A stretch of 64,000 nt of DNA from Chitinivibrio alkaliphilus ACht1 (GTDB lineage: Bacteria > Fibrobacterota > Chitinivibrionia > Chitinivibrionales > Chitinivibrionaceae), in the NCBI RefSeq assembly GCF_000474745.1, contig NZ_ASJR01000001.1, positions 62,001 through 126,000 on the forward strand. The letters run 5' to 3'. This document shows positions 9,767 through 52,239 of the stretch, one piece after another. Position 1 is the stretch's first letter. The number at the start of each line of letters is the position of its first letter. A model generated the notes under the pieces. The model worked only from the letters and a program-made list of their open reading frames with translations. It did no database searches and was not told where the DNA came from. The translations under genes were made by a program, and so were the position numbers.

Positions 9767-10772
9767 GAAGAACTCAATTGCTCTTCTATCAAGTGGGTAT
9801 AATTTTTGCCTAAAGCGTATATTTTGGAGTGCAATTTTCGTGAAAACTCTTTTACCGTAGTGAACTCATTGGTACGTAAGGATTCTTTGAGCAATTCAAG
9901 ACTTTTTGTATTAAGAATCTCATTGAGGCAGTGCTCAAACTCAACAGTGTTGTCTTTCCGTATTCGGTGTAGCGTATCCTGAATAGAAAGAAGCAGAAGT
10001 TTCTTAAGTTCCCGATTATGCACTTGCTGCGTAAAGATAGTGAGACGACGTGAAAAGTAGAGACCATTAAATATTTTCTTGGAACCGCTGTTTTTTGTAT
10101 ATAGTAATGTGAAAGGATTTGTCCAGAAGGGGCTTTTACAGCAACAACGGGAAGAGAAGCGTTATGGTGTATTACGGGGAATACATCGAGAGGCTTTTCT
10201 GGTACTGTTTCACGAAAGAAGCTGTCTGTATCTTCAAGGGCCGACTCACCCATGTCATCCGTGGGATGCACAACTTCATACAGTCCGTTTACCACGCGTT
10301 TATTATTTAAAATGAGCTCTTTTTCAATTTGGCTGGTAATTAGTTCTAGCTCTGCTTCTTTATGTTCAAGCTCTTCCTTTTTTGTCTGAAGTGTCTGAAT
10401 ACCTTCAGTACATTTTTGTATACCTCCACGTATCCGACGAAGCTCACGTTGAGACTGTTCTTGTTCATCCATGAGGTTTTTGCTATCTTCAGTTACAGAA
10501 AGAAGGGTAATTCGTTGATCACGAAGCAGGTCAATTTTGTTTTGATAATGTTCTATGAGCATCGATATGGTTTCATCACCTCCGCCATGATCACCCATGG
10601 ACGACTTTAGTCTCCAAAGATGTCCCAGAGCATTTTTTGCATTTTTCTCTTCCTGCTCCAGCAAGTTTTCCGCAAGCTCATAGGCTGTCCGCGGAACCTC
10701 ATCTTGCTCATCCTTATGAAAGGGGAAGATTCGCTCAGGCTGCTTTTGTGTATCAGATGTGATTGTATCCAT
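9763..10772 (-). CDS. Coiled-coil protein of unknown function, frame break at a T6/A6 run
   Basis: I do not recognise this gene. It starts at ATG 10772 after a good AGGAG site (aaaggagtacct). Residues ~50-190 form a long charged coiled coil (many E/K/Q heptads; HYQNKIDLLRDQRITLL, LQTKKEELEHKEAELELI). At 10091-10096 there is a run of six T on the plus strand. Reading straight through gives an odd cysteine- and phenylalanine-rich tail; adding one base gives a natural tail that continues through LKKLLLLSIQDTLHRI to the stop at 9763. I annotate the repaired form (336 residues). It lies 19 bp after ftsY on the same strand, so it is probably in that operon. Confidence 0.6.
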
Positions 10773-10791
10773 AGGTACTCCTTTCCGAAAA

Positions 10792-11700
10792 TTATACGGA
10801 AAAATCGCCAAACATGGCGTCAATGTATGATTTTGGATCAAAATCCTGCAGATCATGCAGGCCTTCGCCCACTCCAATTTTTTTTACGGGAATATTGAAT
10901 GTTCGTGTGAGAGAAAGGGCTATTCCTCCCTTAGATGTCCCATCAAGTTTAGTGATGATGAAGCCAGTTATCTCAATGAGTTCATTAAACACCTCTGCTT
11001 GCTTGATGGCATTTTGACCGGTGGTTGCATCTACTACAAGGAATACTTCGTTGGGAGTCCATGGATTTGATTTTTTTAAGACGCGAACAATTTTTCCAAG
11101 CTCCTTCATGAGCTCTCCCTTATTGTGTAAGCGTCCCGCAGTATCAATAAGCATCACATCAGCACCACGTTTTTTGGCTGCTTCCATACTGTCATACACA
11201 ACCGAAGCAGCATCAGCCCCTTCACCTTGAGTAATAATTTCACACTCGGCACGTTCGGCCCACAACTGTAACTGTTCAATGGCACCAGCACGAAACGTGT
11301 CTGCAGCGGAAAGGAGTACCCGACTGCCTCGTTGGCGATATTCATGGGCAAGCTTTCCAATGGTGGTGGTTTTTCCCACGCCATTTACCCCTATTACCAA
11401 GGTTGTCCAAGGTTTTGGAGGAAATTCGTCTGGCTCTTTTTGAATTGCCATATCAAGGGAGAGTAAATGTTTCAGGGTTTCATATGCCTCGGCACATCCA
11501 GTGATACCTTCTAGTTCAACTTCACTCCGAAGTTTGTCAAGTATCTCCATGGTGATATCAGCTCCAACATCTGCAGCGATGAGAGCGTCTTCGAGGGATT
11601 CGTAAAACTCCTCCGTGATCTTCGTATCGTGTTCCACGATTTCGGAGATTTGATTGCGGGTCTTACTTAACCCATCCTTTAGTCTGGCAAATAATTTCAT
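10792..11700 (-). CDS. ftsY: Signal recognition particle receptor FtsY
   Basis: 302 residues; SRP-receptor GTPase that docks the ribosome-SRP complex at the inner membrane. The N domain (about 1-90) precedes the G domain: P-loop GVNGVGKT at 104-111, DTAGR near 187, TKLDGTSKGG near 252, and the closing GVGEGLHDLQDF. There is no long acidic A domain before the NG core, as in many non-enterobacterial FtsY. The start is ATG at 11700, only 7 bp after the repaired mtaB stop, with AAGGT upstream, so it is the downstream partner of mtaB in a tight operon. Confidence 0.95.
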   Translation of the reverse strand: MKLFARLKDGLSKTRNQISEIVEHDTKITEEFYESLEDALIAADVGADITMEILDKLRSEVELEGITGCAEAYETLKHLLSLDMAIQKEPDEFPPKPWTTLVIGVNGVGKTTTIGKLAHEYRQRGSRVLLSAADTFRAGAIEQLQLWAERAECEIITQGEGADAASVVYDSMEAAKKRGADVMLIDTAGRLHNKGELMKELGKIVRVLKKSNPWTPNEVFLVVDATTGQNAIKQAEVFNELIEITGFIITKLDGTSKGGIALSLTRTFNIPVKKIGVGEGLHDLQDFDPKSYIDAMFGDFSV

Positions 11701-16856: not shown

Positions 16857-16926
16857 TATAAATAGAGAACATCCTCGGTGGTGTTGTACTGCCGCAGATG
16901 AGTACATTTTTCAATGGAGCGTGACC

Positions 16927-17361
16927 ATGAAACAGGGATACAGTACGTACAAATCGGCCAGTGTGGAAACAGCGGACAAGGGGAAACTCATTGTTATTTG
17001 TTATGATGTTGCCATAAAAGAAGGCAAGCAAGCCCTGCTTCTTGATGATTCGTACAAAAATATTGAACAAAGGAATCGTCATCTATACAAGATGCAGGAT
17101 GCCGTAACAGAGCTCCTTATTGCCTTAGATTTGAAGGTCGGTGAGGTGGCAAAAAATCTCTACAGCCTCTATGAATACATGTTGCATCGTATTACCACCG
17201 CTATCACAGATCGTGATAATGCCCCCGTAGAAGAAATTCTTGCCTACTTAACGGATTTGCGTGAGGCATGGAAAGTGGCCATTCAGGATGTGAAAAGTCA
17301 AGGAGGGATTGATAAGGTTCGACAGGAGTATAAGAAGAAAACCGTTGCCGCCCGAGGGTAG
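16927..17361 (+). CDS. fliS: Flagellar export chaperone FliS
   Basis: 144 residues. Family features are the N-terminal YSTYKSASVETADKGKLIVICYDVAI and the helical SLYEYMLHRITTA. FliS binds the flagellin C-terminus and prevents premature polymerisation in the cytoplasm. I take ATG 16927 rather than GTG 16921 because the GGAG at 16915 is better spaced. It is the only plainly flagellar gene in the window; the pse cluster 6 kb on probably decorates flagellin. Confidence 0.92.
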   Translation: MKQGYSTYKSASVETADKGKLIVICYDVAIKEGKQALLLDDSYKNIEQRNRHLYKMQDAVTELLIALDLKVGEVAKNLYSLYEYMLHRITTAITDRDNAPVEEILAYLTDLREAWKVAIQDVKSQGGIDKVRQEYKKKTVAARG

Positions 17362-17402
17362 ATAAATATATTTTAGGGCAACTTTTTTTTGGAGGCGTGG
17401 CC

Positions 17403-18024
17403 ATGGCCGTATATAGGGAGTACTTTTCTGGTGCATCCGTCGATTTTCTGACCTCTGCAGCAGATCTTTCAGGCTGTCCCGCCCACGAAAGAACAGAATT
17501 TGCCTTATTTGGTCGCTCAAATGTGGGGAAGTCATCTTTTCTCAATCATATCTTCGAGTCAAAAAAATTGGTTCGTGTGTCTCGAGAGCCGGGAAAGACA
17601 CGTCTGTTAAATTTCTTTTCCTTCACAGATGAGATCTCCTTTGTTGATCTTCCCGGGTACGGCTATGCCCGTGTGTCAAAAAAAGATCGAGCTGACTGGT
17701 CTGGAATGATTGCGTCGTACTGTGAGCAACGGGAAAATCTTGCAGGTCTTATTTGGCTTCTTGATTATCGACGTGAAAGGGGTACGACCATCGATCGTGA
17801 GGCAGCAAACTGGCTTGCCACTCTTGGTATACCGGTGTTTGTTGTGCTTACAAAGAGTGATAAGCTCAACAGAAAAGAGCGACAAAAAAAATCTGCGTTC
17901 TCTGAAAGAGGCTTTTGATTTTCCGCCCGGCATGCCTCTTTTACCCTACTCTGTTCGCAATGGTACGGCTTGTAGAGAAACATTTTGGAAACGCTTTTCA
18001 GCGTGGATTCATCCGGAGGAGTAG
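17403..18024 (+). CDS. engB: Ribosome-biogenesis GTPase EngB/YsxC, frame break at A8
   Basis: An essential GTPase for 50S assembly. G1 is GRSNVGKS at 37-44, followed by G3 DLPGYGYA and G4 TKSDK. ATG 17403 is preferred to GTG 17397 because GGAGG (17391-17395) sits 7 bp before it. At 17884-17891 there are eight A: as read, the protein stops at 17918 after SAFSERGF. With seven A it continues NLRSLKEAFDFPPG to WIHPEE and stops at 18024, the expected EngB C-terminus. I annotate that end. Loss of this gene should be lethal, so the break is either a sequence error or corrected by slippage. Confidence 0.92.
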
Positions 18025-47110: not shown

Positions 47111-48800
47111 ATGCAGTTTCACCAGTATCTCCGGCAACTAAAACCTTCTCTTGTATTTCAGTATTTCCTCCCTGATACACAGGTGCGGATATTGTCAGAA
47201 GAGGTATACAAACGCATTGAAGAACGACATTGTTCGGCGAAGTCTGTGCAGGAGAGCATAGAGAAATTTGCCCCAGAGATGGAGCAAGAGTTTCTTGCAA
47301 TTTACTGCAGTGGAGGAAAACTCGCACCACAGGATCAGCTAAAGACCGCTCTTCTCCAAACATTCCTTGTGTGCGAAGGAGTTCGAGGAACTCATACATG
47401 GTTGTTCCCTTTTGAGGATCTACGTCACCGAGTAGCTGAATATTATACTGCTTGCCAGGATATTCCCGCGCCGCAAAAAAACATAGGGTTGCGTGTTTCT
47501 GGAGACTGCGCAATATTAGGTGGACTTGCATTTCAAGGCGCCATTCAGCAAAAAAAGATGGAGCATATACGAAGCGATTTCGAGAACTTTTTGTACAATT
47601 TACCTCCTTGGGAAGATGGGCAAAAGAAGTAGGACCAAAGCTCTGTGAACCACTTATGGAAATGGCGGTAGATTTGCTTTGTGCCATGGGGTATTTAGAG
47701 AAAAAGCGAAGTTTGGTTTACCTTAATAATGACAAGAGTATTCCAACAGAAAGCAACGCTCTCTCTATGGCGCCAAAAGTGCTCTTTGGTGATATGGAGA
47801 TGCTTGATGCTCTTGCACAGCATCGTGCCAGTCTACGGTGTTCTTGCATACCACCTCCCATCATAGCGTCCTTGGTGTTTCTGCAGTGGCTTGGAAGAGT
47901 GAACCTTTCTTTTTCCAAGGGACGCATATATATATATCCGCTCCAAACTGAACAGCAACGCTCTCATGCCACTCCCATGGCGGGGCATATCCTTCCAGAC
48001 TTTTCTCTCGTGATTCCTCCCGATATTCAAGCAGAATCACTCTTGTTTTTTTGTAAAATTGGACAACTGCATCATTTTGATGTGGTCTTTCATGGCACGA
48101 TACGCCGTGACACCATAGAGTATGCCTTGAGAAAGGGGATTTCTCCAGAGATTATTGAAGAGTTTCTTCGTAGCTGGAACGCCACAGAAAATATCATGCA
48201 CACTGTACAAGATTGGGTATCAACATTTCACCGCTCTTTTATGCATGGTGATTTTCTGGGGGTCACCGACTCCGCAGCGGAGCGGTTGCTTGGAGAAAAA
48301 AGCATTGCCCCCCATCTTCGAGAAATACGTGGATACCGTTTTTTTATATTCCTCCAGATAAACGCGAAATGGTTCGCAAACGACTTGAACATCATGGATA
48401 TGATACATCGTGCTCCTTTGCAAGCGATGATTTAGATCAAGAGCCCCTTGGTGCGGTTGAAAAACACGCCCCTGTCCAAGAATCGGTGCAGTTTCAGTTT
48501 GACCCCGATGTGAAAGGTGTGGAGGGGCGTGAAAATAAGGGAAGCATTTATAACGGTGAATTAAAAGGCCGTTCTCCCCGCGAAATTATACGTCTTGTGA
48601 AATATGCTAAAATGATGGAGCTTCCTCTCGTATTGGTATATCGTGAAGGCTTGTCCCGTGGAATTGATCAGGTTGTTCGTCCTGTAGAATACGCTTCTCC
48701 ACAAGACTCGTTTTTTGAAGCATCAGATGAAAGAGGGAGCGTAAGACGTTTTTATATAAGCAAAATAGAAAAATTTGGAGTTGTTGAAGATGAGCTTTGA
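47111..48800 (+). CDS. PF13625 helicase-associated / WYL-like protein, two frame breaks
   Basis: One gene of about 563 residues after repair of two runs: A7 at 47550-47556 (needs eight) and T7 at 48339-48345 (needs eight). Each repair joins natural sequence: FQGAIQQKK to DGAYTKRFREL, and IRGYRFF to YIPPDKREMV. Residues ~295-400 (HILPDFSLVIPPDIQAESL, RDTIEYALRKGISPEIIEEFL) resemble the XPB/Ssl2-N-type helicase-associated domain. The end (IIRLVKYAKMMELPLVLVYREG, RPVEY) resembles a WYL fold. No helicase ATPase motor is present. The stop overlaps dnaE by 11 bp, so it is probably co-translated with the replicative polymerase. Function unknown. Confidence 0.65.
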
Positions 48801-51800
48801 GCATAGTGAATTTGTTCATTTACATACCCATAGTGAGTATAGTTTCCTCGATGGAGCCATACGTATTGATGACCTTGTTCAAAAGGCGGCAGAACAAAAA
48901 GCTCCAGCCACAGCCCTCACAGATCATGGCGGGTTATTTGGTGCTCTTGAGTTTTATAAAAAAAGCATGAATGCCGGTATTAAACCAATCCTTGGATTTG
49001 AGGCATATGTTGCTCCCCGTGGGAGAAAAGAGCGGAGCAAAGACCGCTACCATTTAATTCTTCTGGCTGAGTCAAACAAGGGATGGGAAAACATAATGAA
49101 GCTCTCCAGCGTGGGGTATACGGAAGGGTTTTATTACAAACCGCGCATAGACTATGAAGTGTTACGGGAATATTCCGAGGGTATAATTGCTACCTCAGCA
49201 TGCATCGGTGGAGAAATTGCTCAAGGGATACTTCGAGGAGAGCGAGAAACCGCCCTCAACAGTATTGATACATATCTTGATATTTTCGGTGCGGATAATT
49301 TCTTCATCGAATTGCAGGATCACGGCATGGATGATGAACATATTGTTATGGAGCAGCTTATTGATATGGCGGGTGAAAAGGGAGTACCTTTGATAGTCGC
49401 CAATGATGCGCATTACTTAACAAAAGAAGATGCTGATCCACACGATGTTTTGCTTTGTATGCAAACAAATGCGCGGTATACTGAGGAAAACCGGTTTCGC
49501 TTTCCCACAGAGGAGTTTTATGTAAAAGACCCAGAGGAGATGCGCGAGCTTTTTCCCGATATTCCGGAAGCGATGACCAATACAGTTCGCATTGCTGAGC
49601 GATGTAGTGTAGACCCGTTTCACAAGCCAAAACTACCCAGCACTGGTATCCCTGAGTCATACTCTGATGAAGGAGCATATTTAAAAGATTTGGCCTATAC
49701 GGGGGCAGAACAGATTTATGGTGAGCTCACTCCAACCATTGAAGAGCGCCTTGATTTTGAACTCGATATTATTATATCAATGGGCTTTCCCGGATACTTT
49801 CTGATTGTACGTGACTTTCTTCTCTGGGCTGACAAGCATGGGATAATGCGTGGGTGTCGGGGCTCTGCTGCCGGTTCTCTTGTGGGAAGGTGTATTGGTA
49901 TCACCAATGTGGATCCCTTAAAATATGATTTGATTTTTGAACGGTTCCTTAATCCGGAGCGTATCAGCATGCCTGATGTGGATGCGGATATTGCTGATTC
50001 TGAACGAGGACGGGTAATTCAATATTGTGTCGATAAATATGGTAGTGAGGCTGTCAGTCAGATCATTAATTTCGGTAGAATGAAGGCAAAAAATGCCGTA
50101 AAAGATGTCGCTCGTGTTATGGGAATTCCTCCCACGGATTCACAAATGTTGTCGAACATGGTAAGTGAGTCAACTATTTCAGAATCAATAGATAAGAATG
50201 GCGAATTAAAGGATTTGTTACAAAAAAACAGTTTGTATGATAAGGTGTTTGCCTATGCACAAAAACTGGAAGGGTTGGCGCGACAACCGGGGATGCATGC
50301 CGGGGGGGTAATTATCGCTCCGGGGGATATACCGCAATGGTCTCCTGTATATAAGCAGGCCGCTGAAGGAACCATGCCCATGACCCAATTTGACATGGGA
50401 TTTGTAGAGGATACGGGGCTTATAAAAATGGATATCTTGGGCCTGCGCACCTTGTCGGTTATTCAGGAGACGGTGAATCTTATTAAGGATTTTCACGGAG
50501 TGGAAATCGATATCTGGAATGATATCGTTGATGGAGACGAGAAAACCTATGCTGAGATTTTCCACACGGGGGAGACCGTTGAGATCTTTCAGTTTGAATC
50601 ACCGGGAATGCGCAAACACTTAAAAAAATTGCGTGCTACCTCCATCGAAGATCTTATTGCCATGACCTCCCTGTTTCGTCCCGGGCCCATGGAAAATATT
50701 GATAGTTTTATTCGAAGAAAACATGGGAAAGAGAAGATAGAGTACCCACATCCTATGCTAAAGTCGATCCTTGATGTAACCTACGGAATTATCGTATATC
50801 AAGAACAGGTAATGCGCATAGCTCAACAAATGGGGCAGTTTACCTTAGGTCAGGCCGATATTCTCCGTAAGGCCATGGGGAAAAAGAAGCTTGATGTTAT
50901 GGAGGAGATGAAAAAAGATTTTCTTAAGGGGGCAGAAAATCAGAAAATTGATCTAAAAAAGGCCGAAGCAGTGTGGGACCTCATGGCGAAATTTGCCAAA
51001 TACGGTTTTAATAAGGCCCACGCGTGTGTATATGCTCATGTGTCATATCAAGCAGCATACCTTAAAGCTCACTATCCCTGTGAGTATATGGCGGCGGTTA
51101 TGACCTCACGCTTGGGAGATCAAAAGAAGTTTGTATCTGCCACAGAGGAAGCTCGTCGTCTTGGTATTGAGGTTCTTCCACCAAATATCAATGTATCGAC
51201 ACCAAACTGCAGTGTTCAAAACGGGAAGATCTCAATAGGTTTGCGTGCTATTGCCAATGTGGGGAAAGCCTCAACGGCCATCGTGGAAGAACGCGAAAAG
51301 AGGGGAGGGTACCAAGATCTCTTTGATCTCTGTTGCCGAGTAAACTTACATGATGTGAGTAAAAAAGCCCTGGAATCTCTCGTTTGGGCCGGTGCCATGG
51401 ATTGTTTTGGAGAACACCGATCAACCCTGTGTAATACCATTTCTATTGCGGTAGATTATGGAAAAAAACAACAGGAGGAGAGTGCCAGCGGACAAACCAA
51501 TCTCTTTGGAGAATCCACGGCGGCTCTTCCTGTTCCTGCCGTACAGCACCTTGATGAGTGGGAGCATTTTGACTTGCTTAATAAGGAAAAGGAGGTGATG
51601 AATTTTTATGTAAGCGGGCACCCCCTTGAACATTTTAAAGATGAAATTCGGGGATTTTCCACCATGGATTTTTCAGAAGAAACCGTTGCCCGTCTTCGAC
51701 ATAAACAAAGTGTCTTAGCTGGCGGAGTTATTACAGGGGTAAAGAAGTTCAACTCTCGTAAAGATGGAAGCCCCATGGCCTTCATGTCCTTTGAAGACTT

Positions 51801-52239
51801 GGTTGGTGAAGGAGAACTCTTTTTTCCACCTAAAATGTATGAATTGCATAGCCATCTCTGTAACGCAGAAGAGATGGTTTTGGTTCGCGGAACTGTTGAA
51901 AAAGAACATGTTCAAGAAGATTCCGTGGATAAAATAAAGTGTAAGATTGTTGCAAATAAGGTAATGCCCTTAGATGAAGCTCGTACGGCAATTACCAAGG
52001 CGGTACGTATCCATATAACCACGAGTGGCCTTGAACGAACCCATTTAGAAGAAATCCTGGAAACCTGTAAGAAACATGGAGGTGGCTGTATTGTTCTTAT
52101 ACATCTTCATACAGGTGATGGGAATGAGTACGTGATCCGTACAAAGAATCTTCTTGTTTCTTCATCACGAACATGTTGTGCAGCTCTCAGAAAACTTGCG
52201 GCTGTAGATGATGTTGTGTTGAGTCAACGAACAAAATAA
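48790..52239 (+). CDS. dnaE: DNA polymerase III alpha subunit
   Basis: 1149 residues from ATG 48790 (GGAG 10 bp upstream). The N-terminal PHP domain starts HLHTHSEYSFLDGA. The polymerase active site has PDVDADIAD (the paired Asp of the PDxDxDF motif) and IKMDILGLRTL (third Asp). GCRGSAAGSLVGRCIGIT and MHAGGVIIAP are family blocks. A tudor/HhH region follows at KYGFNKAHACVYAHVSYQAAYLK, then an OB domain (VLAGGVITGVKKFNSRKDGSPMAF). There is no DnaQ-type exonuclease insertion, so it is DnaE1-like, not PolC. Confidence 0.97.
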   Translation: MSFEHSEFVHLHTHSEYSFLDGAIRIDDLVQKAAEQKAPATALTDHGGLFGALEFYKKSMNAGIKPILGFEAYVAPRGRKERSKDRYHLILLAESNKGWENIMKLSSVGYTEGFYYKPRIDYEVLREYSEGIIATSACIGGEIAQGILRGERETALNSIDTYLDIFGADNFFIELQDHGMDDEHIVMEQLIDMAGEKGVPLIVANDAHYLTKEDADPHDVLLCMQTNARYTEENRFRFPTEEFYVKDPEEMRELFPDIPEAMTNTVRIAERCSVDPFHKPKLPSTGIPESYSDEGAYLKDLAYTGAEQIYGELTPTIEERLDFELDIIISMGFPGYFLIVRDFLLWADKHGIMRGCRGSAAGSLVGRCIGITNVDPLKYDLIFERFLNPERISMPDVDADIADSERGRVIQYCVDKYGSEAVSQIINFGRMKAKNAVKDVARVMGIPPTDSQMLSNMVSESTISESIDKNGELKDLLQKNSLYDKVFAYAQKLEGLARQPGMHAGGVIIAPGDIPQWSPVYKQAAEGTMPMTQFDMGFVEDTGLIKMDILGLRTLSVIQETVNLIKDFHGVEIDIWNDIVDGDEKTYAEIFHTGETVEIFQFESPGMRKHLKKLRATSIEDLIAMTSLFRPGPMENIDSFIRRKHGKEKIEYPHPMLKSILDVTYGIIVYQEQVMRIAQQMGQFTLGQADILRKAMGKKKLDVMEEMKKDFLKGAENQKIDLKKAEAVWDLMAKFAKYGFNKAHACVYAHVSYQAAYLKAHYPCEYMAAVMTSRLGDQKKFVSATEEARRLGIEVLPPNINVSTPNCSVQNGKISIGLRAIANVGKASTAIVEEREKRGGYQDLFDLCCRVNLHDVSKKALESLVWAGAMDCFGEHRSTLCNTISIAVDYGKKQQEESASGQTNLFGESTAALPVPAVQHLDEWEHFDLLNKEKEVMNFYVSGHPLEHFKDEIRGFSTMDFSEETVARLRHKQSVLAGGVITGVKKFNSRKDGSPMAFMSFEDLVGEGELFFPPKMYELHSHLCNAEEMVLVRGTVEKEHVQEDSVDKIKCKIVANKVMPLDEARTAITKAVRIHITTSGLERTHLEEILETCKKHGGGCIVLIHLHTGDGNEYVIRTKNLLVSSSRTCCAALRKLAAVDDVVLSQRTK

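Follow-up and report, generated by a model that had tools for sequence, protein, structure and literature searches.

A motorless p52-like protein encoded with dnaE in Fibrobacterota is a candidate partner of bacterial XPB

Introduction

In human TFIIH, the clutch of p52 and the N-terminal domain of XPB adopt the same fold and dimerize, which recruits XPB to the complex (PMC6422496); together with p8, p52 also regulates the XPB ATPase, acting as a speed limiter (PMC7708078). According to a 2012 study, no p52 homologues had been found in bacteria, and bacterial XPB probably functions without a TFIIH-like complex (PMC3353954); a 2026 review terms the role of bacterial XPB elusive (PMC13024598). 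A different set of proteins is relevant to the C-terminal part of the protein described here: the WYL domains of the regulators PafBC and DriD bind single-stranded DNA (ssDNA) (PMC11804915, PMC12340889).

Here, we describe HelC, a protein encoded immediately ahead of dnaE in Chitinivibrio alkaliphilus ACht1 and conserved across the phylum Fibrobacterota. We found no description of this family, or of a bacterial p52-like XPB partner, in the open-access literature. On balance, we favor the reading that HelC is a bacterial p52-like partner of XPB, co-expressed in Fibrobacterota with the alpha subunit of DNA polymerase III.

Results

Reading frame of HelC. The window, the whole 64,000-nucleotide stretch of the genome that was analyzed, carries the HelC gene at 47111..48800 on the plus strand. 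It encodes a motorless p52/XPB-N-like protein of 563 residues with a C-terminal WYL-like domain, in a frame that is broken twice in the assembly, at an A7 homopolymer (47550..47556, +) and at a T7 homopolymer (48339..48345, +), each one base short. The full-length protein, which the original prediction had already put at 563 residues after mending of these breaks, is obtained by joining three overlapping frames with one base added at each homopolymer, and the three pieces were treated as one protein for searches. Two lines of analysis agree with this reconstruction: a homology-free codon-usage scan switches frame at the same two homopolymers, and no gap is needed at either break to align HelC with its closest intact relative, a 565-aa protein of a different genus in the same family. 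Because the joins also lie in 7-base homopolymers, an assembly or sequencing error is the best explanation of the broken frame; a recent real break is also possible. A twice-broken frame is likewise what a decaying pseudogene, with an incidental linkage to dnaE, would present; we consider this very improbable, given the homopolymer position of both breaks, the codon usage that remains coding on either side of each, the conserved residues that all three pieces retain in the family alignment and profile, and the retention of HelC by 88 of the 89 good-quality genomes of the phylum. Relatives of HelC are single open frames of ~600 aa, nearly all without an internal stop. The codon-usage scan also marks two other places in the window, 9778-10805 (-), near a T6 at 10091, and 16891-17906 (+), near a T8 at 17383, as possible further frame breaks or as separate genes.

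Distribution in Fibrobacterota. In a first search, 55 of 61 genomes, counting that of the window, had a match to HelC. With a family profile, it was found in 161 of 168 Fibrobacterota genomes; it is present in 88 of the 89 good-quality genomes, and every one of the 41 genera has it. Most genomes have a single copy, and named relatives come from Chitinispirillales, Chitinivibrionales, and other Fibrobacterota. Sequence identity is low, at about 20-30%. In the window's own family, two loci (L043:4601-6109 and L044:2268-3728) encode a shortened HelC that lacks the WYL part and lies away from dnaE.

Linkage to dnaE and neighboring genes. The HelC stop codon (TGA, 48798-48800) lies downstream of the dnaE start codon (ATG at 48790), so that the two genes overlap by 11 bp (48790..48800, +), as had been predicted. 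The dnaE gene (48790..52239, +), encoding the DNA polymerase III alpha subunit, is the sole PF07733 gene in the genome. Relatives keep the pairing, so that one of the tests by which the original prediction could have been refuted is passed: dnaE lies directly downstream of HelC on the same strand in 31 of the 34 same-order relatives with enough contig, most of which show a 4-bp ATGA overlap. Outside the order, there are 16 further dnaE-linked loci, including members of the distant families f9, f11, f12, and f13, and families with at least one dnaE-linked genome amount to 11 of the 14 in the phylum (family and locus totals tallied by hand from neighborhood listings). This linkage, in the order and across families, indicates that the HelC-dnaE pairing is probably ancestral in Fibrobacterota. 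It is not obligatory: the large Fibrobacter-like genus g24, genus g3 of the window's own family, and some others have lost it. A linkage this deep in the phylum, together with the 4-bp overlap in most order relatives, is what might be expected of an accessory factor acting directly on DnaE, independently of XPB; however, the Fibrobacter-like genus retains HelC without the linkage, and homologues in other phyla lie away from dnaE and track XPB (below), and we regard such a role as quite unlikely.

A second association concerns helicase genes. At 17 loci of family f8, the gene directly upstream of HelC encodes a DnaQ-exonuclease plus DinG/XPD-type helicase, and the row DinG-type gene, HelC, dnaE occurs in seven loci. 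For this one family, the best reading is that HelC is co-expressed also with the DinG/XPD-type helicase. Among the individual loci, the DnaQ-exonuclease/DinG-type (XPD-family) gene directly precedes HelC in the Fibrobacteraceae-like loci L022-L031 and L097-L104; the window genome has its homologue elsewhere, on contig C8. On the other side, an acyltransferase-like (plsC-type) gene usually follows dnaE in Chitinivibrionia relatives (L039-L074), whereas the window has a cation-efflux transporter gene in that place.

Domain architecture. To describe the fold of the whole protein, we used an AlphaFold2 model of relative L079 (pLDDT 85). Its best matches in the PDB are TFIIH p52/Tfb2 (E down to 8e-9), followed by XPB and then WYL regulators. 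Structural realignment places residues of about 128-406 on p52 (Z 10-11, >200 residues) and residues 319-472 on XPB 72-335, which comprises the N-terminal and damage-recognition domains (Z 11.8, 147 residues). Residues 525-599 match the WYL domain of DriD (Z 11.5, 74 residues, rmsd 2.2), and the C-terminal WYL folds of DriD, PafBC, and BrxR as a group are matched at Z 10-11.5. In a model of the middle fragment of the window copy, the confident residues 138-227 match the p52 clutch at Z 13.0 (rmsd 1.9, 92 residues) and XPB at Z 13.5, where unrelated folds reach Z 6. Fragment residues 76-132 match winged-helix proteins at Z 4-6; the model is poor before approximately residue 100 (mostly pLDDT <50), and its N-terminal part was left uninterpreted.

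Mapped onto the window, these comparisons give a predicted order of four segments, all on the plus strand. A winged-helix-like segment (47782..47952), modeled with low confidence in the window copy and well in L079, stands just before the clutch domain (47968..48237; protein residues 287-376), which has the XPB N-terminal/p52 clutch fold of the PF13625 type in the window fragment model. As in XPB, the clutch is followed by a damage-recognition-domain (DRD)-like segment (48238..48404), placed by the L079 model and alignment. A WYL-like small beta-barrel (48573..48788) closes the protein in the L079 model, and the alignment between the family profile and the window copy extends over it.

Sequence profiles agree with these folds to different degrees, and the deep homology of HelC rests on predicted structures and profiles together. 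PF13625 matches 15 of 23 family members (best E 1.1e-6); the deep-branching Fibrobacterota member L108 scores 41.7 bits against the curated cut-off of 34.2, while the other members checked score 13-25 bits, below it, and the match of the window copy falls below the reporting level of the Pfam search. The HelC family probably belongs to PF13625, and the PF13625-like part of the original prediction, for which a failed profile match would have been a refutation, holds at the family level; the window copy alone would miss the cut-off. The WYL-like part that had also been proposed is borne out as a clear fold match in L079, with a best E of 0.13 for the sequence profile PF13280 (L051; 12.7 bits vs. 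a cut-off of 21.8). For the Tfb2 profile PF03849, E values range from 0.0002 to 0.13, the best belonging to an outside relative (20.8 bits vs. 34.5). Profile scans detected no helicase motor or RecA-like motor domain in HelC, in line with the absence noted beforehand. The window copy has no curated match in Pfam, NCBIfam, and PADLOC scans, and family profiles compared with PDB sequences gave nothing credible. Compared with the single XPB sequence of its own genome by hhalign, HelC shows a weak match (E 0.0037, prob 9) in which the expected clutch region is aligned. Weak matches to PX, pP_pnuc_1, DIOX_N, and PsaE were rejected as chance, and the scan gave no support for a role in anti-phage defense.

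The C-terminal WYL domain, related to those of DriD, BrxR, and PafBC, the winged-helix-like parts, and the first position ahead of dnaE, which is typical of many regulators, could also describe a transcription regulator of the WYL type, which would sense ssDNA, bind DNA through its winged helix, and control the operon that it forms with dnaE. The bulk of HelC, however, matches p52/XPB-N, whereas regulators of this type have a short HTH-WYL layout; in Fibrobacteraceae, HelC follows the DinG-type gene and is internal to a row of genes, and its homologues elsewhere pair with XPB rather than with polymerase genes. A regulator of this kind is therefore unlikely.

XPB and motorless homologues in other phyla. 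Beyond the phylum, the search gave weak HelC matches in eight genomes, and those with enough sequence proved to be motorless PF13625 proteins. Seven such homologues, aligned together and compared with HelC, match it over 417 columns (hhalign prob 99.5, E 2e-22). The motorless proteins of other phyla are roughly 500-970 aa long and are not encoded near dnaE. In a profile comparison restricted to the WYL part, the outside homologues of one phylum reach E 0.002 (prob 13.5), and nothing was found in L117/L118.

The genes of these homologues are associated with XPB. In four genomes, the HelC-like gene comes directly after XPB, with gaps of -4, -32, +21, and -4 bp. In the phylum of genome G219, a HelC-like protein occurs in 15 of 199 genomes and XPB in exactly those 15; the two genes adjoin in 14 of them, and the 15 genomes were checked for separate motorless ORFs. 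The nominal p of 7e-23 for this co-occurrence assumes independent genomes and overstates the evidence, since the genomes are related; XPB and HelC-like proteins also share the clutch domain, so that one may at times be detected as the other. In the phylum of G179, HelC-like matches occur in 37 of 40 genomes, and XPB lies just upstream at 29 of the 30 loci examined, within 174 bp at 28. G244 (L121:6679-8541) encodes a motorless HelC-like protein and has no detected XPB, the only such case seen.

Fibrobacterota also encode XPB: each of the 89 high-quality genomes has an XPB-type match, 88 of them alongside HelC, and the window genome has a full XPB on contig C32 (817 bits vs. a cut-off of 610). 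Three observations together point to HelC as a partner of XPB: the p52/XPB-N fold and, in other phyla, the position of its homologues beside XPB and their strict co-occurrence with it. Several observations count against this reading: HelC is not beside XPB at the Fibrobacterota loci examined, some genera have lost the dnaE linkage, the copies at L043 and L044 lack the WYL part, identity is low, the PF13625 scores of most Fibrobacterota members fall below the cut-off, and the G244 protein has no XPB match to accompany it.

Discussion

We propose that HelC is a motorless protein that corresponds in bacteria to TFIIH p52 and to the N-terminal half of XPB. By analogy with the dimer of the p52 clutch and the XPB N-terminal domain in human TFIIH, the HelC clutch would probably pair with the N-terminal clutch of the XPB encoded elsewhere in the genome, and HelC may act as a scaffold or as a regulator of the XPB ATPase. 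The C-terminal WYL domain, as those of PafBC and DriD bind ssDNA, would probably do the same and may thus signal a gap or a stalled fork. The overlap with dnaE suggests co-translation, by which Fibrobacterota might make an XPB module alongside their replicative polymerase, for use in repair or restart where replication leaves gaps; a link to the main polymerase follows from the co-translation and the single dnaE of the genome. We infer XPB binding, ssDNA sensing, replication coupling, and any contact with DnaE from gene context and folds. The original prediction had left a role in replication or its regulation as an open possibility, and that possibility stands; the evidence favors a more specific role, as a partner of the XPB helicase.

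A broader proposal, which we put forward tentatively, is that bacteria possess a TFIIH-like module in which XPB is joined by a p52-like partner whose WYL domain senses ssDNA and, in Fibrobacteraceae, also by a DinG/XPD-type exonuclease-helicase. Within Fibrobacterota, this module would be built into the replicative polymerase operon, with XPB acting at replication gaps or stalled forks.

Bacteria probably do have an XPB partner, which was previously thought absent. A conserved p52-like protein whose gene adjoins XPB in some phyla and dnaE in most Fibrobacterota constitutes a specific, testable candidate; it bears on the evolution of the XPB-p52 clutch and on whether bacterial XPB aids replication besides repair.

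Comparison with known systems

Like TFIIH p52/Tfb2 (PF03849), HelC has a winged-helix region followed by a clutch and lacks a motor, and its relatives accompany XPB genes. In contrast to p52, it is bacterial, adjoins dnaE, gives weak matches to the Pfam Tfb2 profile, and in the L079 model continues after the clutch into a DRD-like segment and a WYL domain, in place of the p8-binding C-terminus of p52. HelC is p52-like in layout, yet is not classed as a p52 member, because it misses the Tfb2 cut-off and has this different C-terminus. With the N-terminal half of XPB (PF13625 plus DRD), it shares the order and fold of the clutch and DRD-like segments; unlike XPB, it has no ATPase motor, and it carries additional domains at its N-terminus as well as a WYL domain. 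The WYL fold at its C-terminus is that of the regulators DriD, PafBC, and BrxR, although in HelC it is fused to a p52-like scaffold as the last domain of the protein. Archaeal Bax1 (PMC7672443, PMC13024598) resembles HelC in its proposed role, as a protein dedicated to partnering a prokaryotic XPB, and differs in being a nuclease, whereas HelC has no nuclease domain above the Pfam cut-off. Also comparable are the motorless PF13625 proteins of other phyla, for which no NCBIfam model scores above its cut-off and which are homologous to HelC over the 417 aligned columns; these mostly adjoin XPB, whereas the Fibrobacterota branch adjoins dnaE or a DinG-type gene.
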